Source: a virus. From it: 28,895 nt of DNA. Location: positions 1 to 28,895 of the IMG/VR virus record IMGVR_UViG_3300020437_001681, one strand, 5' to 3'. This document shows positions 5,704 to 27,914 of this stretch, in pieces (position 1 is the first letter of the stretch; every line of letters starts with the position of its first letter). A program made the translations under genes and the position numbers. The notes under the pieces are model-generated. The model had not been told where the DNA came from and ran no database searches. It saw only the letters and a list, made by a program, of their open reading frames with translations.

Positions 5704-7140
5704 ATGGCAGACTCATTTAAACCACTGGGACAAGATAGCATCAAATCAACCAGAACCCTATTACACGAATCTATTCCAATTACAGGAGCACTGGTTTCAG
5801 GAACATACAATGCATCTGGCAACCCAGAAAGAGGAGAAAATATAAAGGTATATTCACACGGAATGTTTCAGTCAGTTTATGACTATCCTTATGTTTCTTC
5901 TTCTGCAAATCACATATTTGATATCACAGCAGGATTTAGTAGTGCAGGATCATCACTATCCGGATCAGCCTTGGTGCAAAAAAATAAAAAAATCAATATC
6001 TATAATCAAATGGCTCAAGTTTTAAATGGTTATGATACTGAAAGTGTAGTGCGCCGCTTTGATGCTGACGGCGACCTCAGTGAAGGCGGTGGAACCAAGC
6101 ATGATAATACATACTTTTTTAACTTTTCAAGACTCTTGGTCAAAGACGAAATAAAGAAGGGTAGCTTTTCTATGGTGTTTGGCACAAACAGTTCTTATGC
6201 TACACCGTTTGCTGATGACTCTATATTGACGGTAACGGATACTGCTGGGACATATAAAGTTAATTCACCTGCAGGTGAATATGGGATCTTAAAAGCATCT
6301 GGTGTCGCAGCCTCTGCAGAAATTATATTTACAGGAGACCCAGGTCTGAACAACACTATAACTTTAATTTCTGCCGATGGAACCTCTAGAACCTACAGCG
6401 CTAAAACCTCAGCCAACGCTGCAGCTGGTACATTTGACCACAACAATGGTCAATCAACCGCGGCATCAACACTGAGGGCAGCAATAACAAATGAGGCCGG
6501 CCATGGTGATAAATTCATTGTAGTGCACACCGACCCCGCGACCTTGACAATAACAAATGCAACTGCAGGTTCTGCAGGGAACACTGTCATTACAAGTAAT
6601 CTTGCAAACACCACAATTAACGGAGCTACAAGTGGCCCATACGCTTTTCAGCGCGGAGTTACTGCCGGAAATGTAGGTCTTGTATATTATCAGGCAGGCA
6701 TAAGCGTGTTAACCTCTTCAATCTTTAGTGGCTTCAATGACGGTGAAGAGCTAGTACAAATGAACTCCGCAGGACAACATTCAGAAGACCTTCTTGTTTC
6801 CTCTTCAATAGATGACATTGCAGATGCAATTAGACATAGAATCAAAAATATCTCTTTTAATAACACTACTGAATTAAACTCTACTCATTACTTCTGCAGA
6901 GTTGGGTATGGAGATTTCAACTACAGCTCTAATCCCACGTATATAGAAAACAGCAAAATAAGAGTAAAGAAGTCTGACGGTGGCGTCGGACAAGAAAGGA
7001 ATAACATCCCCGTGTCTTATATAACGACCGTTGGTTTATATTCACAAGACAATGAGTTGTTAGCCGTTGCAAAACTATCAGAGCCTCTAAGAAACGATCC
7101 TACTACAGAGATGATTTTAAGAGTAAGACTGGATTACTAA
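5704..7140 (+). CDS. Virion structural protein, paralogue A with inserted module
   Basis: A 478-residue protein, started by ATG after TTAGGAGA. It is paralogous to the next gene: both share an NYSxNPTY motif (about residues 400 and 320) and the same C-terminal pattern (GLYSQDNELLAVAKL here, GIYDRDKNLIAVASL there). Between residues about 205 and 309 it carries an extra domain rich in Thr, Ala and Asn, beginning FTGDPGLNN. The paralogue lacks this, but the protein at 26676 has it. The insertion falls inside the equivalent of the paralogue's segment SGDVTGSQVGVAIYNHG. The module has the look of the small beta domains common in phage virion proteins. It is probably a tail or head-surface component. 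Confidence 0.78.
   Translation: MADSFKPLGQDSIKSTRTLLHESIPITGALVSGTYNASGNPERGENIKVYSHGMFQSVYDYPYVSSSANHIFDITAGFSSAGSSLSGSALVQKNKKINIYNQMAQVLNGYDTESVVRRFDADGDLSEGGGTKHDNTYFFNFSRLLVKDEIKKGSFSMVFGTNSSYATPFADDSILTVTDTAGTYKVNSPAGEYGILKASGVAASAEIIFTGDPGLNNTITLISADGTSRTYSAKTSANAAAGTFDHNNGQSTAASTLRAAITNEAGHGDKFIVVHTDPATLTITNATAGSAGNTVITSNLANTTINGATSGPYAFQRGVTAGNVGLVYYQAGISVLTSSIFSGFNDGEELVQMNSAGQHSEDLLVSSSIDDIADAIRHRIKNISFNNTTELNSTHYFCRVGYGDFNYSSNPTYIENSKIRVKKSDGGVGQERNNIPVSYITTVGLYSQDNELLAVAKLSEPLRNDPTTEMILRVRLDY
6319..6636 (+). repeat. Module copy 1 (shared with 27123-27440)
   Basis: This segment encodes the TGDPGLNN...TYSAKTSANAA...FDHNNG...AAST...LTITNAT module. Bases 6331-6449 align without gaps to 27135-27253 with 12 mismatches in 119 (about 90%) by hand count. 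Identity drops in the second half, although protein similarity persists. The neighbouring paralogue lacks the module, so it behaves as an insertable domain. Confidence 0.85.
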
Positions 7141-8354: not shown

Positions 8355-8963
8355 ATGCTAATAAATAAGAAAATAAACCTATTAGCAATAAAGATACAAT
8401 CATTACAAGAGGAACTCCTTGCATCTCAAGATATAGTTCACCACGCAGCATCGGAAGTAGATAAGCTATTTAGAGAAAGACATCCGGAATTGTTTAAGAG
8501 TAACACAAACAGCGAAGGCAACATTAGCAAGCAGGGCCAAAACACACATAAACAGGAAAATAAAGCAAAACAACCAATTCCTCCGTCAAAAGAATCAAAA
8601 AATGTTTTTAGAAAAATAGCACTAAAAACTCATCCTGATCGGCTGCTAGACGACCCAAATGTATCTGAAAAAGAAGAAAAAATAAAACTATATCAAAAAG
8701 CCGTAAAAGCTCACGAAGAAAATGATATAATAGCATTGCATCATATTGCAGATAAGTTAGGCATAAAGCCGCCACAAGTATCAGAGCAAGATATAAAAAA
8801 AGCCGAAAATGCAATAGTAAAATTACAAAACCAAATAAAGGGTGTAGAAGAGACAGTCATTTGGCAGTGGTTTATAGCAGAAGGCAAAAGAAAAGATAAT
8901 ATTCTAGAAAGGTTAATGATATTAATGTATGAACAGTCAACAAAAAACGATACTAGCCCTTGA
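8355..8963 (+). CDS. J-domain (DnaJ-like) protein
   Basis: A 202-residue protein with a charged helical N-terminus, a Gln/Lys/Asn-rich linker (about 48-80) and a J-domain-like segment. FRKIALKTHPDR carries the invariant HPD tripeptide at residues 93-95. A helix follows (KLYQKAVKAHEENDIIALHH, then IADKLGI), a pattern seen in bacterial J-domain proteins. No Gly/Phe region, zinc domain or substrate-binding domain of full DnaJ is present. J domains stimulate Hsp70 ATPase through HPD, so this protein probably recruits host DnaK, perhaps for virion assembly or replication-complex remodelling. It starts 1 nt after the structural paralogues and overlaps the resolvase gene by 35 nt. Confidence 0.75.
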   Translation: MLINKKINLLAIKIQSLQEELLASQDIVHHAASEVDKLFRERHPELFKSNTNSEGNISKQGQNTHKQENKAKQPIPPSKESKNVFRKIALKTHPDRLLDDPNVSEKEEKIKLYQKAVKAHEENDIIALHHIADKLGIKPPQVSEQDIKKAENAIVKLQNQIKGVEETVIWQWFIAEGKRKDNILERLMILMYEQSTKNDTSP

Positions 8964-14833: not shown

Positions 14834-15208
14834 ATGAAAGAAAAAGATTTAAACCAAATAGCCAAGCTTGAAAAAGCTATAAAAGATAAATACGGAAAAG
14901 AAGCAATTCAAAACCCCAATAGTACCTGGACCAAAGACAAAGAACAAAAATATCTGGAAGAGCTAAAAGAATTTTATAAAAACAAAAAAACAGAAAAAGA
15001 GTTAATAAAAATAAAAGAAGACACATTTATAAAAAATAGTAAAATTACAGAAAGGCAAAAACAAATATGTAATATTTGTTCTTGCTACTCAGTGTCTCAC
15101 GTAGATGATGTCTACATGACAAAGTTTAAATGTTGCTCTAAATGTTATATTCAATATATTGAAGGAAGAGAAGAAAGATGGAAATCAGGCTGGAGGCCAA
15201 ACAGCTAA
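14834..15208 (+). CDS. Small zinc-ribbon protein, unknown function
   Basis: A 124-residue protein beginning 1 nt after the previous stop. The first 70 residues are a lysine-rich helical segment. The C-terminal part has a cysteine cluster: C79-x2-C82-x-C84 and C100, C101, C104, consistent with one four-cysteine zinc ribbon, followed by the basic stretch EGREERWKSGWRP. Zinc ribbons in small phage proteins often bind nucleic acid or RNA polymerase. I cannot place this one in a family. It ends just before two ACTATTTA boxes and the packaging genes, so it closes the membrane-protein group. Confidence 0.65.
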   Translation: MKEKDLNQIAKLEKAIKDKYGKEAIQNPNSTWTKDKEQKYLEELKEFYKNKKTEKELIKIKEDTFIKNSKITERQKQICNICSCYSVSHVDDVYMTKFKCCSKCYIQYIEGREERWKSGWRPNS

Positions 15209-15747: not shown

Positions 15748-17334
15748 ATGTCCGTATCCTTAACAAAACAAGAAATTATGAAGGAAATTGTTCGTTCTGG
15801 AAAAAACCCAGAATACTTTATCCATACATATGCTAAAATTACTCATCCAATTAAAGGATTAATTCCCTTTCATTTATATCCATTTCAAAGTAAGTTGCTG
15901 GAAGACTTTGAAGATCACAGATTTAATGTTATATTGAAAGCTAGACAACTTGGCATTTCAACAATAAGTGCAGCATATGTTGCATGGATGATGATGTTTC
16001 ACAGAGAAAAAAATGTTCTTGTCATAGCAACAAAATTTAGTACAGCATCAAATCTAGTAAAAAAAGTAAAAGCTATAATTAAAAACTTACCAGACTGGCT
16101 AAAGATATCAAATGTTACTATAGACAATAGAACATCGTTTGTATTATCTAATGGTTCTCAAATTAAAGCATCATCAACTTCTGGAGACGCCGGCCGTTCA
16201 GAGGCTCTATCATTGTTGGTGATTGACGAAGCCGCCCATGTTGAGGGCTTAGAAGAGTTATGGATGGGTCTTTATCCAACGCTTTCCACTGGTGGTCGCT
16301 GTATTGCTTTATCCACACCAAACGGAGTAGGCAACTGGTTTCATAAAATATACACAGAGTCTGAAAATAAAACTAATGACTTTTACAATACAAAGTTGCC
16401 CTGGGATGTTCACCCCGACAGAGATCAAGCCTGGTTTGAAAAAGAAACTAAGAATATGTCAAAAAGAGAGATTGCACAAGAATTAGAGTGTAATTTTAAT
16501 ATGTCAGGAGAGACGGTATTTTCCTCAGAGGATATTCATACCTATAATAGTATTGTAAAAGAGCCAAAATATAGAACTGGGTTTGATAGGAACCTGTGGA
16601 TTTGGGAAGAAAGAGAGCCAGAAAATTCTTATTTAATTTCTGCAGACGTCGCCAGAGGAGATGGAAAAGATTATTCTGTTTGCCATGTTGTAAATATAGA
16701 AACTATGGAAATAGTAGCAGAATACCAAGGTAAATGTACCCCTGATATATTTTCTAGAGTGCTTTTTGATATAGGGCAAGAATATGGCAATGGTTTGCTG
16801 GTGGTAGAGAATAATTCAGTTGGCTTTGCAGTGTTGGATAAGTTGAAAGAAATGAAATACCCCAACCTTTACCATTCTATTAAGTCGAGCCATGAGTTTG
16901 TAGAAGAGTATCAAGCAGATCAAATGACCAATGCAGTAGCAGGCTTTACCACTACTTCTAAAACCAGGCCGCTGATTATAGCAAAGATGGAAGAATTCAT
17001 AAGAAACAATCTAATTAAGATATATTCATCTAGACTTTTGTCTGAAATGAAAACTTTTGTTTGGAACCACGGTAGAGCAGAAGCTATGAGATCTTATAAC
17101 GACGATCTAATCATGTCTTGTGCTGTAGCATGCTGGGTTAGGGATACTGCTTTGATGAAAAACCAGAAAGATTCTGAATACAATAGAGCATTTCTAGGAG
17201 CAATAACCAAAAACTCTAGCGAGCTAGATACTAGAATCAAAGGCATGATTGGTACATCAAATATAAAAATGAAAGATAATATGAGAAAACACCATAATTC
17301 TGTGGTAAACTACCCATGGCTATTTAAAGGATAA
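15748..17334 (+). CDS. terL: Terminase large subunit (gp17-like packaging ATPase/nuclease)
   Basis: A 528-residue DNA-packaging motor. The ATPase domain has an adenine-binding FHLYPFQ (41-47), a modified Walker A ARQLGIST (65-72), Walker B LLVIDE with D160 and E161, and a coupling motif ALSTP (187-191). The RNase H-type nuclease has D300 (ISADVARGDGKD), E354 (LVVENNS) and the D452/D453 pair (YNDDLIMS). All key residues are intact. It translocates DNA into the prohead through the portal and cuts concatemers. The start follows AAGGGATAAA, and the portal gene follows after 11 nt. The length is somewhat shorter than T4 gp17 (610). Confidence 0.96.
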   Translation: MSVSLTKQEIMKEIVRSGKNPEYFIHTYAKITHPIKGLIPFHLYPFQSKLLEDFEDHRFNVILKARQLGISTISAAYVAWMMMFHREKNVLVIATKFSTASNLVKKVKAIIKNLPDWLKISNVTIDNRTSFVLSNGSQIKASSTSGDAGRSEALSLLVIDEAAHVEGLEELWMGLYPTLSTGGRCIALSTPNGVGNWFHKIYTESENKTNDFYNTKLPWDVHPDRDQAWFEKETKNMSKREIAQELECNFNMSGETVFSSEDIHTYNSIVKEPKYRTGFDRNLWIWEEREPENSYLISADVARGDGKDYSVCHVVNIETMEIVAEYQGKCTPDIFSRVLFDIGQEYGNGLLVVENNSVGFAVLDKLKEMKYPNLYHSIKSSHEFVEEYQADQMTNAVAGFTTTSKTRPLIIAKMEEFIRNNLIKIYSSRLLSEMKTFVWNHGRAEAMRSYNDDLIMSCAVACWVRDTALMKNQKDSEYNRAFLGAITKNSSELDTRIKGMIGTSNIKMKDNMRKHHNSVVNYPWLFKG

Positions 17335-17345
17335 AGGTAAAACAA

Positions 17346-19358
17346 GTGGACAAAAAAACTAAGAACAACCCAAGAAACCCTCAAAGTATTTTGTTTAGGA
17401 GACTAACGAGACTCCTATCTGGTCCTCTAACACAATATAGAACACAGAATAACCACAGGCTCAGAAGAATAGATTTAGATAAATATGCTAACAAATTCAC
17501 TTCAGCTTCTGGCAGAGATTTTAAAAAGACTGCATACAATCCGTACGACAATTTACAAAGTGCATACATGGCTTCACAGCAAAGGACAGAAAGGTATGTT
17601 GATTTTGATCAAATGGAATACACCCCAGAAATTGCATCTGCATTAGATATCTATGCAGATGAGATGACAACATATTCATCACTAACGCCAATGTTATCTG
17701 TAGAGTGTGAAAACGAAGAAATTAAGGCTATTTTAGAATCTTTGTATACGAATGTACTGAACATAGAGCACAATATGTTTGCATGGTGCAGGACAATGTG
17801 TAAGTATGGTGATTTTTTTCTTTATTTGGATATTGATGATAAGTTGGGGATAACATCAGTTATTGGTTTACCATCTAGAGAACTAGAGAGACTAGAAGGA
17901 GAAGATAAGAAGAATCCTAACTATGTTCAGTTTCAATGGAACTCTGCTGGCATGACATTTGAAAACTGGCAAATAGGCCACTTTAGGATTTTGGGTCAAG
18001 ATAAATACAATCCATACGGAACTTCAGTTTTAGAGCCGGCAAGAAGAATCTGGCGCCAGCTTACTCTTATTGAAGATGCCATGATGGCTTATAGAATTGT
18101 TAGATCTCCTGAGAGAAGAGCTTTTTATATTGACGTGGGAAATATCCCACCACAAGATGTTGAGCAATATATGCAAAAAATCATGTCAACCATGAAAAGA
18201 AATCAAGTCGTCGACGCACAGACTGGAAGAGTTGACCTGAGGTACAATCCATTATCTGTAGAAGAAGATTATTTTATCCCAGTCAGAGGTCAAAGTTCAA
18301 CTAAGATAGAGTCAGTGGCAGGAGGAAAATATACTGGTGATATAGAAGACGTTAAATATCTAAGAGATAAGTTATTTTCTGCGCTTAAGATTCCTGCTGC
18401 ATATATTACATCTGACGGTGAGAAAGCTGTAGAAGATAAGACAACACTTGCACAAAAAGACATAAGATTTTCAAGAACAATACAAAGACTGCAAAGATCG
18501 GTAGTTAGTGAATTAGAAAAAATAGGTATAATCCACTTATACACACTTGGTTACCGAGAAGAAGATTTAGTTAGTTTTCATTGCAAATTAAATAATCCAT
18601 CAAAAATAGCGGAAATGCAAGAATTAGAATATTGGAAAACTAAGTTCGATATTGTCGGAGCAGCAACCGAAGGTTTCTTTTCAAAGCAGTGGTTGGCATC
18701 AACACTATTCGGAATGTCAGATGAAGAGTTCTTAAGAAACAGAAGAGAAATGTTTTATGATAAGAGATATGAAGCAGCACTTGAAGTTGCCGGAGAGTCA
18801 GAACAGGCGGATCAAACAGCCGGTCTAAATGCTGGCCCAACTGATATGGGACTTGGTGGGGACCTTGGCACTCCTGGTGGGGTAGGAACTGTGGGCGCAG
18901 AACCAGAACTTGGCGCGCCAACACCCGATGCTGCTGCCACACCTGGCGCCACACCTCCAGCTGGAGACTCTCCCGACGCGGGCGGCGCCCCAGAAGAGGG
19001 AGACTTATTAGCAGCACCCCCGGGAAAAAGAGAGGATAAAAAGGGCAGAACCACTACAAGTAAATCTCACGGATGGTATGAACCAAGAAGTCTATTCGCT
19101 GGAGGCGATCGCAGAAAAACCTCGGGACCTAGAAAGAAAAACATGAACCGCGCCGCTAGCCCTGAGGTTGGGACCACAAGAAAGACAATACCGGGTTATG
19201 AAGAATTGTCACAGCTAGCTAAAGGAACCAGTATTTATGAGGGTTCAGAGACTATTTACAAAGTAGAGGAAAACAAAATTCTTAAAGAACAAAAAGAATT
19301 AGATGCGCTTTTTGAAAGTCTAAACAATAGGAGAACCAAAGATGAGACTGAAACATAA
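17346..19358 (+). CDS. gp20: Portal protein (gp20-like) with low-complexity C-terminal extension
   Basis: A 670-residue T4-type portal starting at GTG 17346 after AAAGGATAAAGG. Family-typical stretches include YVDFDQMEYTPEIASALDIY, DKYNPYGTSVLEPARRIWRQ and YLRDKLFSALKIPAAYI. The dodecameric portal occupies one head vertex, nucleates prohead assembly and is the channel for packaging. T4 gp20 is 524 residues; the excess here is C-terminal. It consists of a Gly/Pro/Ala/Asp-rich linker at about 493-560, more GC-rich than the rest of the gene, then a basic and helical tail. The tail contains IYE-G near the end, which fits the prohead-protease consensus. The end overlaps the next gene by 17 nt. Confidence 0.94.
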   Translation: MDKKTKNNPRNPQSILFRRLTRLLSGPLTQYRTQNNHRLRRIDLDKYANKFTSASGRDFKKTAYNPYDNLQSAYMASQQRTERYVDFDQMEYTPEIASALDIYADEMTTYSSLTPMLSVECENEEIKAILESLYTNVLNIEHNMFAWCRTMCKYGDFFLYLDIDDKLGITSVIGLPSRELERLEGEDKKNPNYVQFQWNSAGMTFENWQIGHFRILGQDKYNPYGTSVLEPARRIWRQLTLIEDAMMAYRIVRSPERRAFYIDVGNIPPQDVEQYMQKIMSTMKRNQVVDAQTGRVDLRYNPLSVEEDYFIPVRGQSSTKIESVAGGKYTGDIEDVKYLRDKLFSALKIPAAYITSDGEKAVEDKTTLAQKDIRFSRTIQRLQRSVVSELEKIGIIHLYTLGYREEDLVSFHCKLNNPSKIAEMQELEYWKTKFDIVGAATEGFFSKQWLASTLFGMSDEEFLRNRREMFYDKRYEAALEVAGESEQADQTAGLNAGPTDMGLGGDLGTPGGVGTVGAEPELGAPTPDAAATPGATPPAGDSPDAGGAPEEGDLLAAPPGKREDKKGRTTTSKSHGWYEPRSLFAGGDRRKTSGPRKKNMNRAASPEVGTTRKTIPGYEELSQLAKGTSIYEGSETIYKVEENKILKEQKELDALFESLNNRRTKDETET

Positions 19359-21120: not shown

Positions 21121-21720
21121 ATGAAACTTATAAGAGAATATTTTGAGCTATGTGAAGGTGGCATTTGCAAAGACTTGCTAACAGAAGCAGAGAAAGACTA
21201 CGTTAAAAATGGTGGTATTATTCTAACCGGTCTGATGCAAGAAGCTGAAAAGCAAAATGGCAACGGCCGCATATACGAATTAAGTACACTAAAAAGAGAA
21301 ATAGAAAGATACTCAACGATAGTCGAAGCTGGAAGAGCACTAGGAGAGCTAGATCACCCAGAATCAAGTGTTGTCGAATTGAAGAGTGTTTCCCATACCG
21401 TAACCAAGATTTGGATGGAAGGAAACAAGGTGATGGGCAAAATTAGGGTTTTGCAAGAAACGCCTATGGGTAAAATACTGGCAGGTCTCGTAAAAGAAGG
21501 AATACCTTTGGGCATCTCTTCGAGAGGCACAGGGTCAGTCAGAGAATCAAATGGAGTCACCATGGTGGAAGACGATTTCCAGTTGATTTGTTTTGACATG
21601 GTTTCTGATCCATCTACTGCCGGCGCATTCATGATGACAGAGGCAAAGGATCCAAAAAATTTAAATAATAATTTAATAACAACAATGGACAATATGATAC
21701 ATAGGTTTGGTCAAAAATGA
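21121..21720 (+). CDS. gp21: Prohead core protease (gp21-like)
   Basis: A 199-residue T4-type prohead endopeptidase. Family features include the early strand IILTGLMQEAEKQNGNGRIY, H79 in ALGELDHP, S133/S134 in GISSRGTGS and D159/D163 in CFDMVSDPS. These supply the His, Ser and Asp of the expected catalytic triad. In T4 gp21 cleaves the scaffold, the capsid N-terminus and itself after (L/I)xE. Here LLTEAEK at 19-25 offers an LTE|A self-processing site. The N-terminus MKLIREYF resembles other short assembly peptides in this window. The start is set by AGAGG 5 nt upstream; the stop overlaps the next start (ATGA). Confidence 0.93.
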   Translation: MKLIREYFELCEGGICKDLLTEAEKDYVKNGGIILTGLMQEAEKQNGNGRIYELSTLKREIERYSTIVEAGRALGELDHPESSVVELKSVSHTVTKIWMEGNKVMGKIRVLQETPMGKILAGLVKEGIPLGISSRGTGSVRESNGVTMVEDDFQLICFDMVSDPSTAGAFMMTEAKDPKNLNNNLITTMDNMIHRFGQK

Positions 21721-22136
21721 AGAGATCGCAACTAAAGATGATAGTAAAAGAGTGCGTTAAAGAAATACTCTTCGAAGAGGGCGTGCTGTCTTCACTGGTC
21801 GCAGAAGTTGCAGTGGGTATAACAAAAGCAAATATGACACTGACAGAACAGCCTACAGTCTCAAAAGCAAATTTTAAAGAATCGCAACAAAAGCTAGCTG
21901 AAGAACAAGAGGCTCAGCGCAAAGAAAAAATTATGGAAACTAAAAAAAAGATGGTTGAAGCAATGGGGGACAGAATGTCAAATGTTTTTGAAGGAACAGA
22001 GCCTTTAAGATCAGCAGGGTCCCCAGATGCCGGACCTAGCACATCGCCACTGTCAGGCTTAGACCCTAAAGACGCCGGCGTAGATATAGCAGGATTATTT
22101 AGCGTTGCTGGAAAGAAGTGGAACGCACTAAAGTAA
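21717..22136 (+). CDS. Small prohead-module protein (unknown)
   Basis: A 139-residue protein coupled to the protease by an ATGA overlap. The N-terminus (MKRSQLKMIVKECVKEILFE) is an amphipathic basic helix like those of other proteins here. A Glu/Lys/Gln coiled coil follows at about 50-80, then a Pro/Ser/Gly-rich linker and a hydrophobic end (VDIAGLFSVAGKKWNALK). Its size and coiled coil suit a minor prohead core component, analogous in position to T4 gp67/gp68, but no homology is claimed. It is followed 9 nt later by the bS21 gene. Confidence 0.7.
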   Translation: MKRSQLKMIVKECVKEILFEEGVLSSLVAEVAVGITKANMTLTEQPTVSKANFKESQQKLAEEQEAQRKEKIMETKKKMVEAMGDRMSNVFEGTEPLRSAGSPDAGPSTSPLSGLDPKDAGVDIAGLFSVAGKKWNALK

Positions 22137-22145
22137 AGGATTGAA

Positions 22146-22385
22146 ATGAGCAGAGGAAAGCCATGTCATGTAGAAGTAATTATACATGATCAAAACCAAG
22201 TAGAGAGAATGATCAAGAAGTTTACCAGAAAATGTAAAAAGTCTGGTCTCTTTGATGAGTTGAAGGAGAGAAGGTATTTCAAAAAGAAATCTCAAAAATT
22301 GAAAGAAAAAAGAGAAAATAAAAGAAAGAAATCTCAAAAATCAACACAAAAATATAAAGATAAATTTAATAATGAATATAAATAA
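22146..22385 (+). CDS. rpsU: Phage-encoded ribosomal protein bS21
   Basis: A 79-residue, very basic protein that fits bacterial small-subunit protein S21. It opens with a short beta strand (HVEVIIHDQNQVERMIKKF). The canonical helix with a central Cys follows (TRKCKKSGLFDELKERRYF), then a lysine/arginine-rich helix ending around residue 70, against about 71 residues in E. coli bS21. bS21 sits near the 3' end of 16S rRNA, assists initiation and exchanges readily on ribosomes, so a phage copy could bias host ribosomes towards phage mRNAs. Phage-encoded bS21 is known from marine and uncultivated phages. Here it lies within the head operon, with an AAAGGA ribosome site. Confidence 0.88.
   Translation: MSRGKPCHVEVIIHDQNQVERMIKKFTRKCKKSGLFDELKERRYFKKKSQKLKEKRENKRKKSQKSTQKYKDKFNNEYK
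22377..22384 (+). promoter_or_regulatory. TATAAATA box, possible T4-type late promoter
   Basis: TATAAATA equals the T4 late -10 consensus. It overlaps the last codons of bS21 and lies 25 nt before the next ATG, so a transcript would begin at or inside the ribosome site. That spacing is tight and the sequence is AT-rich, so chance is likely. Confidence 0.2.
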
Positions 22386-22401
22386 TATAGGAGAAAGGTA
22401 A

Positions 22402-23181
22402 ATGTCAGATTTTCATAGACACGCAGCATGGGGTAGAGTTAGGCGCCCAAAGAATATATTAGGAGCTGACGGATTCGTAGCCACAGGAGCTAACAACGTA
22501 CCTGGCATATCTTCCATCAAGATTGGTCTTGGCGGTACCGCACCCGTAAATGATCTAACAGGTGACATTGCCGGAGCTGCATTGAACACATCTACAGGTG
22601 TGGTAACATTAACAGTTGGTGGTAATGAGCTTGATGATGCTGTAGTGGGAGAATCAGTGATCACTAGAAACTTTCACCCAGCTATTGATGGAAGATTGCT
22701 GCCTATCACTGCCGAGGACGACGCCGCCAATACAATATCATTTAAGCTTCCACCTGACGGTCTTTCTCAAAATGTTATAAACTCTTTGACGCTATTCCCG
22801 AGAGGAACAGTTACCCGACAAACTGTCCAGGGGAGCAAAACTGAAAATGCAAGATATCTTCATCTTTATTTAGTGAATTCCGGCGCCGCCGCAACGGTGA
22901 CTGTGTATGGTTACAACTACGCTTTCGGTCGCTGGTCTGTCCTTCAATTGCCTGTTGGCTTTAGCACGCAACAGACCGAAGACGACGGCGATGCAGAAGC
23001 AGGAGAAGTTGTGCAAGCAGCGTCCACAGCAGAAAGCAGCTTTGTTGATGCACAGTTTTCAGCTGTCGCGGCTGCAAAGACACACATTATACCAATAGCA
23101 GGGATAGATAAAGTATATTTTGTCTCCTCCGCCGCCAACGAAGGCAACCTCGGCATTGGCGCTGCAATATCCACCTTCTAA
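22402..23181 (+). CDS. Probable virion protein, beta-rich (unknown)
   Basis: A 259-residue protein with a TAGGAGAAAGG ribosome site. It begins with a polar segment MSDFHRHAAWGRVRRPKN and continues as an alanine-, glycine- and threonine-rich beta-type sequence (ALNTSTGVVTLTVGG; NARYLHLYLVNSGAAATVTV). This kind of composition is common in phage head-decoration or tail proteins. There are no catalytic motifs, signal peptide or membrane helices. It lies between bS21 and the scaffold gene, so it is probably made with head proteins and could be a head accessory protein. No family is recognised. Confidence 0.7.
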   Translation: MSDFHRHAAWGRVRRPKNILGADGFVATGANNVPGISSIKIGLGGTAPVNDLTGDIAGAALNTSTGVVTLTVGGNELDDAVVGESVITRNFHPAIDGRLLPITAEDDAANTISFKLPPDGLSQNVINSLTLFPRGTVTRQTVQGSKTENARYLHLYLVNSGAAATVTVYGYNYAFGRWSVLQLPVGFSTQQTEDDGDAEAGEVVQAASTAESSFVDAQFSAVAAAKTHIIPIAGIDKVYFVSSAANEGNLGIGAAISTF

Positions 23182-23287: not shown

Positions 23288-24460
23288 ATGTCTAATCTAC
23301 TCGAAAGAGCCATCATTGATGCTAAGGCGTTAAAAGACGCCGCATTAAAAAATGCAGAACAGCTCGTTATCGAAAAGTACTCTCATGAAGTAAGAGAGGC
23401 AGTCAATCGTCTTATAGAAGAGGATATATTAGAAGAGCAGGAGGATCCTGCCTTAGATATGGGAATGGATATGGGCCTTGGAGGTATGGAAGATGTTGCT
23501 CCTGCTCCTGACATGAACAATCAAGAGGGCGATCCAGAACAGTCGGGCCTCGATTCAGACTCTCTTTTGGCAGACTTTCCAGATGCATTTCTCGCTGATG
23601 AAGATGAAGTTATAAGAATTAAACTAGACTCCCTAGAAGCAGAATTTGAAGATGAAGAAGAAGATGGCCCATTTGCTGGGAAAGATAAGATGGGTGAAGA
23701 TGAAATTGGCATAAGCATAGAAGATGAAGACGAAAATGAAGACGAAGAATTGGATTTTGAAGACCTAGAGGACGACGACGATGATGATGGTGATATAGAA
23801 ATAGACATCACTCAAGATGTAGTATCTGAGGTCTTAGAAGAATTGGATATAGACGAAGAAGAAATTGATTTAGACGAACTAATGGAAAGAGTTAGGGTAG
23901 ACTTTGAACCGCAAAAATCTGGCTGGGCAGGAACTCCAGAGTCAAAGATGCGTGAATATGAAGCAATGCTATTAGCAAAAGAGCAGGATAGCGACACCAA
24001 AGAAGAAAACGAAGAACTAAGAAAAGCAGTCGCAGCCCTACAAAAAGAAAACAAGACTCTAAGCTCTGCGGCAAGCAAGCTGCAGGAGCAAAACAATAAT
24101 TATGAAACAACATTTGAAGCTTTGCAGGAAAAGTTAGAGACCATGAATGTATCTAACGCAAAGTTGTTGTATATTAATCAGGCTCTAGAAAATGCCTCCT
24201 TGAATGAGCGACAAAAAAGAAAAATTGTCGAAGCCATTTCAAAAGCCGAAACAGTACAAGAAGCAAAGATTATGTTTGAAACATTAAACGATACTGTTGC
24301 TACTACTTCAGACGTGAAGAAGGATTCAACATTAAGTGAGATGGTATCAAGAAAATCTTCACTACTTGTCGCGGCTCGTAATGAGCAACCAAAAAAGGAT
24401 GCTAACCCCTTATTCAATAGAATGCAGATGTTAGCAGGTATAAAGGCAAATAAATCTTAA
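23288..24460 (+). CDS. gp22: Prohead scaffolding/core protein (gp22-like)
   Basis: A 390-residue protein in the gp22 position before the capsid gene, with a TTAGGAG ribosome site. It has a helical N-terminus, a Met/Gly/Asp-rich segment, a very acidic region (about 115-200, including runs of D and E) and a coiled coil (about 235-290). The helical segment LLYINQALENASLNERQKRK, followed by IVEAISKAETVQEA, is typical of T4-type scaffolds, as is the ending RMQMLAGIK. Such proteins form the internal core that shapes the head and are later degraded by the prohead protease. The acidic insert makes it larger than T4 gp22 (269). Confidence 0.87.
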   Translation: MSNLLERAIIDAKALKDAALKNAEQLVIEKYSHEVREAVNRLIEEDILEEQEDPALDMGMDMGLGGMEDVAPAPDMNNQEGDPEQSGLDSDSLLADFPDAFLADEDEVIRIKLDSLEAEFEDEEEDGPFAGKDKMGEDEIGISIEDEDENEDEELDFEDLEDDDDDDGDIEIDITQDVVSEVLEELDIDEEEIDLDELMERVRVDFEPQKSGWAGTPESKMREYEAMLLAKEQDSDTKEENEELRKAVAALQKENKTLSSAASKLQEQNNNYETTFEALQEKLETMNVSNAKLLYINQALENASLNERQKRKIVEAISKAETVQEAKIMFETLNDTVATTSDVKKDSTLSEMVSRKSSLLVAARNEQPKKDANPLFNRMQMLAGIKANKS

Positions 24461-24463
24461 AGA

Positions 24464-24474
24464 AAAGGAGGTGA
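24464..24474 (+). promoter_or_regulatory. Near-perfect Shine-Dalgarno for major capsid gene
   Basis: AAAGGAGGTGA is complementary to the whole anti-Shine-Dalgarno end of bacterial 16S rRNA and lies 7 nt before the capsid ATG. It is the strongest ribosome site in the window, consistent with the capsid being the most abundant phage protein, and it implies a host that uses Shine-Dalgarno initiation. Confidence 0.88.
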
Positions 24475-24481
24475 TTTTATA

Positions 24482-26557
24482 ATGTCTGTTTTACAAAGAC
24501 TTACAGAAGGCGTGCAGTCGCGCGATCTACGTGCCGAAGGCGCAGCTCTTCTAGACAAGTGGGAAGCCACAGGGCTTCTTGAAGGTCTCGATAACGAGAA
24601 CCAAAGACAGGGAATGGCCGTCCTGTTGGAAAACCAGGCCAAGGAACTTCTTCGTGAAGCTTCTTCTATGGCTGCAGGCGACGTCGAAGGATTCGCTGCA
24701 GTTGCTTTCCCAATCGTTCGCCGTGTATTCGGTGGATTGATTGCAAATGATCTCATTAGCGTTCAGCCAATGAGCCTTCCAAGTGGATTGATTTTCTTCT
24801 TGGACTTCACCCACAGCAGTGATCGCTTCGGACAGCAGGGACAGTCGCTTTATGGCGGTGGTGTTGTTGGTCGTGGCATCGTTGACGGTGTTGATGATAT
24901 TGAGGAAACCGGTTTCTACGGCTTAACTTCTGGTTATGCCCAGGCAACTGGCTCTATCCTTGCAGCAAATGGTGGTATTACTGGAGCATCGGTTACAGTG
25001 GCAAACGCAGCAAACAACACTGCTATGGATTACGACCCAGACTTAGGGTCTTTACCATTGGTTACGCTTGCTCTTGGCAGTACTGCATTTACAGATGACG
25101 CAGCTAGAGGATTGATCGACCCAGGTTTAGTCCGAGCGATCTCTATTGAGTCGCAGAACCATAACGAAGGTGGCACTGACCTCAACTTGGACGCTGATGG
25201 TGATGAGAATGATCAGGATGGAGAAAGCCAGATACTGGTTGATCCTGTTAACGGAGACCTTCTCCTATGCCAGCGCGCTAGTGGCGCCGCCACCCTTTTT
25301 GGTAGCCGCGCTCTGAGTGATGACGGTGACTGTGCGGTAGCTCGTCTCAAGCCTGTCCGTCGTTTGACAAAGGTAACCACCCAGACAAACGCATCCGGTT
25401 TGAAAGAAGTAGCAACAGTTGCGCAGCTCGTATTTGAGTTGGTATCTGTTACGGATGTTGCAGTAGGTGCATGCCAGGCCGCAACCGGAATTCCATTCGC
25501 TAACGCCGCGGCCTGCCGCGCAGCAGAGCAGGCAGTTGCAGTAGGTGCAAAGGGTTCGAACGACACCCGCGCGCCAGGTGATGACGATATGGCCGACCAT
25601 ATCGCGAGAGCTCTTGGAGGTTCTGATATACAAATTCAGGTTCCAATCCGCGATACGTTAGTTTCTTCGCAGAATGCTCTCGGCGCAATTGCCGGTGCAG
25701 CCCCATGGGGACTTGAAGAGCCAACGCCTGCAGGAGCCGCTGACGGAGACCCCAAGGCTTCCGGTGGTGGAACCACGCAGGCTATAGCAGAGATCGATAT
25801 CAAGGTTGATTCGGTAGCTGTTACAGCACAGACCAAGAAGTTGAAGGCCAAGTGGTCTCCAGAACTTGGTCAGGACCTTAACGCTTACCATAACCTCGAT
25901 GCAGAGGTTGAGTTGACTGGTATTCTCTCTGAGCAGATTGCTCTTGAGATTGACCGTGAAATTCTCGGTGAGCTTGTTGATGGAGCAAAGGCCGGTACTC
26001 GTTACTGGAGCCGTGCACCAGGATTGTTCGTTAACTCGGCAGGTGTTGAGCAGGGTGCTGCTTCTGCTGCACCAGACTTCACTGGTACGGTCAGTGAGTG
26101 GTATGAAACCCTCATTGAAACCATCAATGACGTTTCGGCTCAGATTCACAGAAAGACGCTCCGCGGCGGTGCAAACTTTGTTGTTTGTTCCCCTGAGGTT
26201 GCTAACATCTTGGAGTTCACCAGTGGTTTCCGCGCAAGCGTGACTGCTGACCAGGACCGCGGTACCATCGGTGCTGTTAGAGCTGGTAGCTTGAGTAAGA
26301 AGTTCGACGTTTACGTTGATCCTTACTTCTTGCGTAATGTGTTGCTTGTTGGTCGTAAGGGTAGCTCGTTCCTTGAGAGCGGGTTTGTATATGCCCCATA
26401 TGTACCACTGCAGGTCACACCAACCATCTTCGGTACGGAAGACTTCGTGCCACGTAAGGGTGTCATGACCCGATACGCCAAGAAGATGGTGAGACCAGAT
26501 ATGTATGGTCTTGTTATTGTCCGCGGACTTCTCGGTGAGAGTGGCGGCCCAGCGTAA
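24482..26557 (+). CDS. gp23: Major capsid protein (gp23-like), enlarged
   Basis: A 691-residue T4-type HK97-fold capsid protein. The conserved core includes AFPIVRRVFGGLIANDLISV, QPMSLPSGLIFFLDF and, from about 450, TKKLKAKWSPELGQDLNAYH with DAEVELTGILSEQIALEIDR. Further segments match T4 gp23 up to YAPYVPL. The N-terminal 59 residues look like a cleaved delta peptide: LRE|A at 57-60 mirrors the LTE|A cleavage of T4 gp23. T4 gp23 has 521 residues. The excess lies mostly between about 150 and 430, a Gly/Ala/Asp-rich stretch with four cysteines. Base composition is visibly richer in G+C than neighbouring genes, as expected for high expression, or from transfer. Confidence 0.95.
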   Translation: MSVLQRLTEGVQSRDLRAEGAALLDKWEATGLLEGLDNENQRQGMAVLLENQAKELLREASSMAAGDVEGFAAVAFPIVRRVFGGLIANDLISVQPMSLPSGLIFFLDFTHSSDRFGQQGQSLYGGGVVGRGIVDGVDDIEETGFYGLTSGYAQATGSILAANGGITGASVTVANAANNTAMDYDPDLGSLPLVTLALGSTAFTDDAARGLIDPGLVRAISIESQNHNEGGTDLNLDADGDENDQDGESQILVDPVNGDLLLCQRASGAATLFGSRALSDDGDCAVARLKPVRRLTKVTTQTNASGLKEVATVAQLVFELVSVTDVAVGACQAATGIPFANAAACRAAEQAVAVGAKGSNDTRAPGDDDMADHIARALGGSDIQIQVPIRDTLVSSQNALGAIAGAAPWGLEEPTPAGAADGDPKASGGGTTQAIAEIDIKVDSVAVTAQTKKLKAKWSPELGQDLNAYHNLDAEVELTGILSEQIALEIDREILGELVDGAKAGTRYWSRAPGLFVNSAGVEQGAASAAPDFTGTVSEWYETLIETINDVSAQIHRKTLRGGANFVVCSPEVANILEFTSGFRASVTADQDRGTIGAVRAGSLSKKFDVYVDPYFLRNVLLVGRKGSSFLESGFVYAPYVPLQVTPTIFGTEDFVPRKGVMTRYAKKMVRPDMYGLVIVRGLLGESGGPA

Positions 26558-26581
26558 CTAATCTAATATAGGTTAGAATAG

Positions 26582-26617
26582 AAGCCCCATCATTAATTTG
26601 GTGGGGCTTTTCTTTTT
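26582..26617 (+). terminator. Rho-independent terminator after major capsid gene
   Basis: A 10-bp stem, AAGCCCCATC with GGTGGGGCTT (one G-U pair), encloses the loop ATTAATTT and is followed by a T-rich tract (TTTCTTTTT). It lies 24 nt after the capsid stop. It is the only strong intrinsic terminator seen in the window and should end the scaffold-capsid transcript. Confidence 0.93.
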
Positions 26618-26675: not shown

Positions 26676-27914
26676 ATGGGCAAGAAAAGAAGAATAATCA
26701 ATAGAATCCACAAATTTGGTAAAAAGTACTTTGCTTTTTTGGATGGACTAGACGGTACACGAGACTCGCAACTTTTGAGCTCTAAACTTGATACTATGAT
26801 AAGTGAAATTAAGGTTTCCGATAGAGGAAACCAAACAATGTCACTTCAGTTTGAAGGCTTCGGCCCGGGCGCCTCGGCCCAAGCAGTAGGTCTTGAGAAG
26901 GATAGAGTTATGTATAGTATTGATGGGGTGGAAGTCAACGCAAACGGTATCCAAACGTTTGCCGCAAAAAAAGGCGTAAGTGAAAACACCAGAGACAACC
27001 TTGCCACAACGGCTGCCGCACCAGCTAGATCCGGCGCGGGCGCCTCAGATGTTATCCTCACACCTGGTGAGCACACCATTACTGCTCATATCCTTGGTGA
27101 AGGAGCAGTTGCAGCATCTGTAGAGATTGAATTCACAGGAGACCCAGGTCTGAACAACAGTATAACTTTAATTTCTCATGATGGAACTTCTAAAACCTAT
27201 AGCGCTAAGACCTCAGCCAACGCTGCAGGCAGAACATTTGACCACAACAATGGAAACGAAACTGCAGCGTCGACACTCAAAGATGCGATTGAAAACGCCG
27301 CAGGCCATGATGCCTTATTTACAGTCGTTCGCGATGGTGCAAAGCTAACCATAACAAACGCAACTGTTGGCGCAGCTGGAAATAGAGATATTGTGAGCAC
27401 CCTTAATAATGTAACAATTTCTAATGGCGGAAAGATTGCTGGCGGATTTGATGCGGATGACACAAAGAGTAAAACACTATCAAAGAAATTTACTGTCCTT
27501 GCTGCTAGGCCATTAGACGGAACTGATCTGGCTACAGCTGTCACAGTTGATAACGCCAACGGCCAGCTTGATATTGATCTTTCACACATGCTAGGCACCG
27601 ACGCTAGCGGCTCCGGAAAGCGCCCAGGCGAAGAAGACGTTTACGATCCTCGAACAGGACACAAAGATGGATTCAAGCTTGTTGTTACAAATAAAGACAC
27701 CGGTGCAGACATGCCTGTCAAGAACCTCGGAGACGGTGTTGGTTTGGCTAAAGACGCCCGCGCCCGCGCGAATAGCATTACAGATTTGTTAACCACTGCT
27801 ATGGCTGCAGGAACTACAACCAACGTTTTGGTTTCGTTCTCAGCTTTGTCTTCTGCAGATGCAGTATTGCAAACAATTAGCGTTGAGAAACAAATAGTAC
27901 GGCCAGGGGAATAA
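26676..27914 (+). CDS. Ig-like head/virion protein with shared module, possible decoration protein
   Basis: A 412-residue protein with an AAGGAGGA ribosome site. The N-terminus is basic (MGKKRRIINRIHKFGKKYFA). Next comes a beta domain (about 60-145) with Ig-type strand patterns such as VMYSIDGVEVNANGIQTF and GEHTITAHILG. Residues about 150-255 form the same module as in the gene at 5704. The C-terminus (about 270-412) is another Thr/Asp/Ala-rich beta segment. Following the capsid gene, with strong translation signals, it could be an abundant outer-capsid (Hoc-like) or head-fibre protein, but a tail role is not excluded. The module's DNA identity to the distant copy suggests recent exchange. 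Confidence 0.75.
   Translation: MGKKRRIINRIHKFGKKYFAFLDGLDGTRDSQLLSSKLDTMISEIKVSDRGNQTMSLQFEGFGPGASAQAVGLEKDRVMYSIDGVEVNANGIQTFAAKKGVSENTRDNLATTAAAPARSGAGASDVILTPGEHTITAHILGEGAVAASVEIEFTGDPGLNNSITLISHDGTSKTYSAKTSANAAGRTFDHNNGNETAASTLKDAIENAAGHDALFTVVRDGAKLTITNATVGAAGNRDIVSTLNNVTISNGGKIAGGFDADDTKSKTLSKKFTVLAARPLDGTDLATAVTVDNANGQLDIDLSHMLGTDASGSGKRPGEEDVYDPRTGHKDGFKLVVTNKDTGADMPVKNLGDGVGLAKDARARANSITDLLTTAMAAGTTTNVLVSFSALSSADAVLQTISVEKQIVRPGE
27123..27440 (+). repeat. Module copy 2 (shared with 6319-6636)
   Basis: This segment encodes the second copy of the TGDPGLNN...LTITNAT module. The first 119 nt from 27135 match 6331-6449 at about 90% by hand count, with many silent positions also identical; the rest is recognisable mainly at protein level. 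See the copy in the gene at 5704. Confidence 0.85.

Follow-up and report, generated by a model that had tools for sequence, protein, structure and literature searches.

Why would a marine T4-like phage carry a gene for a ribosomal protein among its head genes, and what would the product do there? The question is raised by an open reading frame in the window (the whole stretch of viral DNA that was analysed, 28,895 nucleotides). The head-cluster location of phage bS21, its late action and the idea of a ribosome swap have already been published (Chen et al. 2022, PMC9723584): these authors described bS21 genes in head clusters transcribed together with structural genes, found, among 900 published bS21 phages, 388 with a core structural gene no more than 10 genes away, and suggested that the phage protein is expressed late, substitutes for its counterpart on ribosomes to the benefit of phage transcripts and may be packaged. 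The bS21 of phage HTVC008M has been shown to be incorporated into Escherichia coli 70S ribosomes, which were then only about 5 per cent active in vitro (Mizuno et al. 2019, PMC6375957). A search of the available literature found no experiments on phage bS21 function beyond these two papers. What is new here is a same-strand slot unlike the layout of Chen et al., occupied by a non-aromatic subtype of the protein.

Identification of the bS21 gene

The gene under study is the following.

22146..22385, + strand: bS21 homologue of 79 amino acids with an ATG start (profile matches, phmmer search of the PDB, AlphaFold2 model)

The product matched the Pfam family PF01165 (Ribosomal_S21) with E = 7.8e-11 and 42 bits (cut-off 27) over profile positions 2-53 of 55, the NCBIfam equivalog TIGR00030 (S21p) with 8.1e-12, above the curated cut-off, and PHROG 21469 ('ribosomal protein S21') with 7e-6. 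When the PDB was searched with phmmer, nearly all matches were bS21 chains (best 3.9e-7). Family membership is thus indicated both by scores exceeding the curated cut-off and by coverage of almost the entire domain (PF01165/TIGR00030). The profile search had been chosen beforehand as a possible refutation of the sequence-only reading, which had described a full-length bS21 homologue; the matches were significant, and the Pfam and TIGR00030 values bear the description out.

The AlphaFold2 model had a mean pLDDT of 84, with helices at residues 16-33, 35-43 and 48-78. In a Foldseek search of the PDB the best four of eight matches were bacterial 30S or mitochondrial small-subunit chains (bS21/bS21m), at non-significant E values of about 1, and the fold comparison of the model with small-subunit S21 chains was weak (VIA Z 5.0-5.4). 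The predicted structure is therefore consistent with bS21, if weakly so, and because the structural scores are weak the identification rests on the sequence profiles. Judged by these, the product is a bona fide bS21. A tblastn search of cultured phages gave no match, the sequence being too diverged for this method. In 36 pairwise comparisons the median dN/dS was 0.073, indicating purifying selection.

The gene is embedded in the head operon

The surroundings of the gene contain the following features.

15748..17334, + strand: terminase large subunit, used as an independent bait for fetching relatives
17346..19358, + strand: portal protein, T4 gp20-like (profile match; homologue annotated as Gp20 in Flavobacterium phage immuto)
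21121..21720, + strand: prohead protease, Peptidase_S77, T4 gp21-like (Pfam 5.9e-24; PHROG 207)
21717..22136, + strand: p21717, a 139-aa protein encoded directly upstream of bS21, in the same position in most relatives
22134..22145, + strand: the upstream gene ends here (TAA) and the bS21 ribosome-binding site begins without a gap (TAA-AGGA...), as is common among relatives
22383..22401, + strand: bS21 stop codon TAA, shortly before the AGGAG of the next gene
22402..23181, + strand: 259-aa protein, by its position a possible virion or decoration protein; a variable slot among relatives
23288..24460, + strand: putative acidic scaffold-like protein at the T4 gp22 position (from position and composition)
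24465..24472, + strand: extended Shine-Dalgarno (SD) sequence of the capsid gene, AAGGAGGT, 8 bases, spacing 9, -12.9 kcal/mol
24482..26557, + strand: major capsid protein Gp23 (Pfam 1.2e-71)
26580..26611, + strand: intrinsic-terminator-like hairpin 3' of the capsid gene, 13 pairs and a T run (by pattern match only)

The order on the single strand is terminase, portal, three small genes, Peptidase_S77 protease, p21717, bS21, the 259-aa protein, scaffold-like protein and Gp23 capsid, so that the protease, capsid, portal and terminase genes are all only a few genes away from bS21. The placement originally described, between the prohead protease group and the scaffold/capsid genes, was confirmed by the Pfam-identified neighbours and can be made more precise: bS21 is one gene away from the protease (21717-22136 between them) and one gene away from the scaffold (22402-23181 between them). 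In most close relatives the bS21 stop codon, TAG, itself begins the SD sequence of the next gene (TAG-GAG).

The hairpin at 26580-26611 was the strongest terminator-like hairpin found on the + strand between position 15000 and the end of the window, and it likely marks the end of the head operon. Late co-expression of bS21 with the capsid protein appears well supported by the common strand, the abutting translation signals and the location of the strongest terminator-like hairpin beyond the capsid gene, and by analogy with transcripts from other bS21 phages (PMC9723584). Taken together, the translational embedding, the purifying selection and the position of the terminator point to a working protein made together with the head proteins, presumably late in infection.

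Exact matches to the T4 late promoter, TATAAATA, were not above chance in number (4 versus 2.9 expected); near-matches were in excess, which is not positional evidence. One match, at 22377-22384, was rejected as a late promoter: it overlaps the bS21 stop codon, and most relatives lack it. No promoter is claimed.

The protein p21717, for which no Pfam family scored above cut-off, is conserved alongside bS21 in nearly all relatives and carries a C-terminal motif of the GVDI...LF...W type. It is possibly a core protein or a partner of bS21, and may be compared with the co-transcribed bS21_CN of Chen et al. (PMC9723584).

Conservation of the slot in related phages

Relatives were fetched by their terminase rather than by bS21 to avoid bias. 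bS21 was present, on the same strand, in all 30 terminase-seeded loci with at least 6.5 kb of downstream sequence, some of them near-identical, and in 52 of 52 loci that extend from the protease to the scaffold or capsid gene it occupied the same slot, always co-directional; the two sets overlap and consist partly of near-identical copies. Among more distant relatives seeded by the capsid gene and having at least 3.5 kb upstream (n = 30), nine had bS21 in the fetched stretch and 12 more had it elsewhere in the record; six tested records, all incomplete, gave no bS21. Several relatives are fragments. The head slot of bS21 is fixed in the phage group of the window and common beyond it.

The head location is nevertheless lineage-specific and not general: pelagiphage HTVC008M, Pseudomonas phage Paride and Methylophilales phage Melnitz each have bS21 outside their head-gene region. 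Paride, which grows on P. aeruginosa PAO1, is a cultured laboratory phage with bS21.

The freshwater large myophages of Chen et al. (PMC9723584), which have predicted Bacteroidetes hosts, resemble the window in that bS21 is in the terminase (TerL)/portal/protease/capsid region. In their five clades, however, the gene is on the strand opposite to the structural genes, whereas that of the window runs in their direction, between protease and scaffold. Three phages in our collection with an aromatic-type bS21 (L226, L311 and L224) have capsid and/or terminase genes related to those of the window, L226 and L311 having both a related Gp23 capsid and a related terminase; their bS21 gene is encoded on the opposite strand, between the portal and protease genes, in keeping with the layout of Chen et al. 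Since the head cluster holds bS21 in two distinct ways, a head-cluster location as such seems to be favoured.

HTVC008M, a Pelagibacter phage, is like the window phage an aquatic T4-like phage with an SD-using genome and a bS21 without the aromatic residue, whereas its bS21 gene has CobS and a heat shock protein gene as neighbours, in the vicinity of replication genes. The SD-using Microcystis phage Mel-JY01 (PP395634) has the same-strand order protease, hypothetical gene, RpsU, ..., scaffold-like protein and capsid; it is, however, distant (capsid 45.8% identical over the aligned parts), and the gene before its bS21 gave no match to the 21717-22136 family. Flavobacterium phage immuto (MW353176), by terminase and capsid among the closest cultured relatives of the window phage, differs in that bS21 was not found and SD sequences are avoided.

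The location bears on the idea, raised in PMC9723584, that bS21 is virion cargo, packaged in the head and injected so that it can act on ribosomes as soon as the next infection begins. The slot between protease and scaffold genes corresponds to the region of the T4 core genes, and the upstream gene 21717-22136 may encode a core protein, as such packaging would lead one to expect. No packaging signal was identified, however, and other phages have the gene away from the head genes; we consider packaging very unlikely.

Shine-Dalgarno sequences and the host

Genes of the window had a mean SD energy against the anti-SD of -5.7 kcal/mol, compared with -2.4 at random positions. The claim that the capsid gene has a very strong SD also held, with AAGGAGGT at -12.9 kcal/mol; the mean for the capsid SD was -11.4 kcal/mol in 80 relatives, and the values for T4 gene 23 and cyanophage S-SSM7 were -3.4 and 0.5, respectively. 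In SD counts of unannotated loci the first ATG was taken as the gene start. A specific tie between a strong capsid SD and the presence of bS21 was not found (n = 3 versus 14): the mean was -11.0 in three related records without detected bS21, all fragments, and -11.1 in 14 with it. Because the SD is equally strong in these three records, the capsid SD alone does not point to bS21.

Since the genes of the window are SD-rich, whereas Flavobacterium phage immuto of the same broad group clearly avoids SD sequences, the host is probably an SD-using bacterium outside the Bacteroidia. Maricaulis was discarded as a host candidate: the sole match in a genome contig (L180, 4 kb, assigned to a Maricaulis MAG) proved to be of phage origin, a head-operon fragment with the order protease, p21717-like protein and bS21, which may have been mis-binned. 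A 190-kb relative had only three tRNAs and was uninformative on the host.

Two types of phage bS21

In Flavobacterium johnsoniae, Tyr54 of bS21 helps to hold the anti-SD shut, and mutation or depletion of bS21 increases translation from strong-SD reporters (PMC9976891). By alignment, the residue of the window bS21 at the position of Tyr54 is K61. None of 51 distinct sequences from the phage group of the window and a first comparison set had an aromatic residue there, whereas the phages of Chen et al. have one at position 54 in 61 of 61 cases and the window, from an SD-rich phage, has Lys. For a second set, Bacteroidota-like and pelagiphage-like bS21 loci were added and the Tyr54 equivalent was read by counting from the conserved Ser42. 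Among the resulting 85 distinct phage bS21s, 0 of 12 loci with an aromatic residue were SD-enriched versus 68 of 73 with a non-aromatic one (Fisher p = 5e-11, counting related phages as independent, with no correction for phylogeny).

This association links phage bS21 to ribosome initiation and not to head structure. It thereby bears on a further alternative, namely that the protein has lost ribosome binding and serves as a basic RNA- or DNA-binding helper of prohead assembly. Such a helper might be expected among head genes and could use the very basic C-terminal helix, and bacterial bS21 can work off ribosomes, in the OLE ribonucleoprotein (PMC12054373). It would not, however, predict that SD use tracks the position facing the anti-SD, and the core of the ribosomal family is kept across nearly the whole Pfam profile. 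Of the explanations considered, we regard this one as the least probable.

The association may also reflect host matching only, with the gene taken from the host and SD use following the host. A more far-reaching, and in our view doubtful, interpretation is that there are two types of phage bS21: SD-poor phages would have an aromatic one that occludes the anti-SD, SD-rich phages a basic one that is permissive, and the two would have entered head operons separately so that capsid synthesis coincides with retuned ribosomes; the window phage would then have the co-transcribed permissive form together with an unusually long capsid SD. If this were true, a one-residue swap between the types would be expected to change which mRNAs, SD-led or SD-less, are favoured in vitro. 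The 484-kb phage LR756508 (L183, bS21 at 17726-17998) is the clearest exception to the two-type pattern, having a head-cluster bS21 without the aromatic residue and yet avoiding SD sequences.

A separate observation concerns the Bacteroidota-like bS21 gene of a 735-kb phage (L211, 12001-12198), which has a strong SD, AAAGGAGGATAA (-11.6), in an otherwise SD-poor region. Flavobacteriales rpsU likewise has a strong SD (PMC9976891), hinting by analogy that host autoregulation was carried over.

Proposed role of the phage bS21

Taking into account what was observed (the bS21 identity, the conserved slot, the translational embedding, the purifying selection, the SD pattern and the missing aromatic residue), we infer late timing in the window phage, incorporation of its bS21 into ribosomes and a preference for phage mRNA. 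The reading we prefer, with a probability of roughly 60 per cent, is that the gene encodes a ribosome-binding bS21, made late with the head genes, which swaps onto host 30S subunits and favours SD-led late mRNAs. Being small, loosely held and exchangeable, the phage protein would replace or top up the host bS21 at its site on the 30S platform, beside the 3' tail of the 16S rRNA. As its class lacks the aromatic latch (K61), the anti-SD is proposed to stay available, and the ribosomes carrying it would initiate well on SD-led late phage mRNAs, foremost the capsid mRNA with its 8-base SD. Incorporation into 70S is known from a different phage bS21, that of HTVC008M (PMC6375957), and is extended to the window protein by analogy. 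If the proposal is true, viruses adjust host ribosomes by supplying a spare subunit at the very time when capsid is in demand.

Several results count against retuning. The approximately 5 per cent activity of ribosomes with HTVC008M bS21 could be due to poisoning or incompatibility just as well as to retuning, capsid SDs are equally strong where bS21 was not detected, the head location is lineage-specific, and LR756508 avoids SD sequences. It is conceivable, although we think it rather unlikely, that bS21 is a matter of supply and not of selection, the phage topping up the protein so that 30S subunits stay complete during host shut-off, with no preference for phage mRNA. Loose binding and exchangeability of bS21, and the preference of phages for exchangeable ribosomal proteins (PMC6375957), agree with this, and plain compatibility with the host ribosome would also require the bS21 class to match SD use. 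Simple supply leaves the fixed position among the head genes and the two orientations in head clusters unexplained, unless late demand alone suffices.

Other features of the window

The product of 8355-8963 contains an HPD motif and gave a weak match to the DnaJ domain that stayed below the Pfam cut-off (4.5e-4). The capsid protein (24482-26557) has 691 amino acids, and a long middle part of it was unaligned with Gp23 homologues from cultured phages (50-54% covered), which is consistent with a large insertion domain. Two otherwise dissimilar proteins, encoded at 5704-7140 (about 10 kb upstream of the terminase) and at 26676-27914 (downstream of the capsid gene), have in common a 111-aa domain with 70% identity, as would result from the copying of a module from one virion protein to another.
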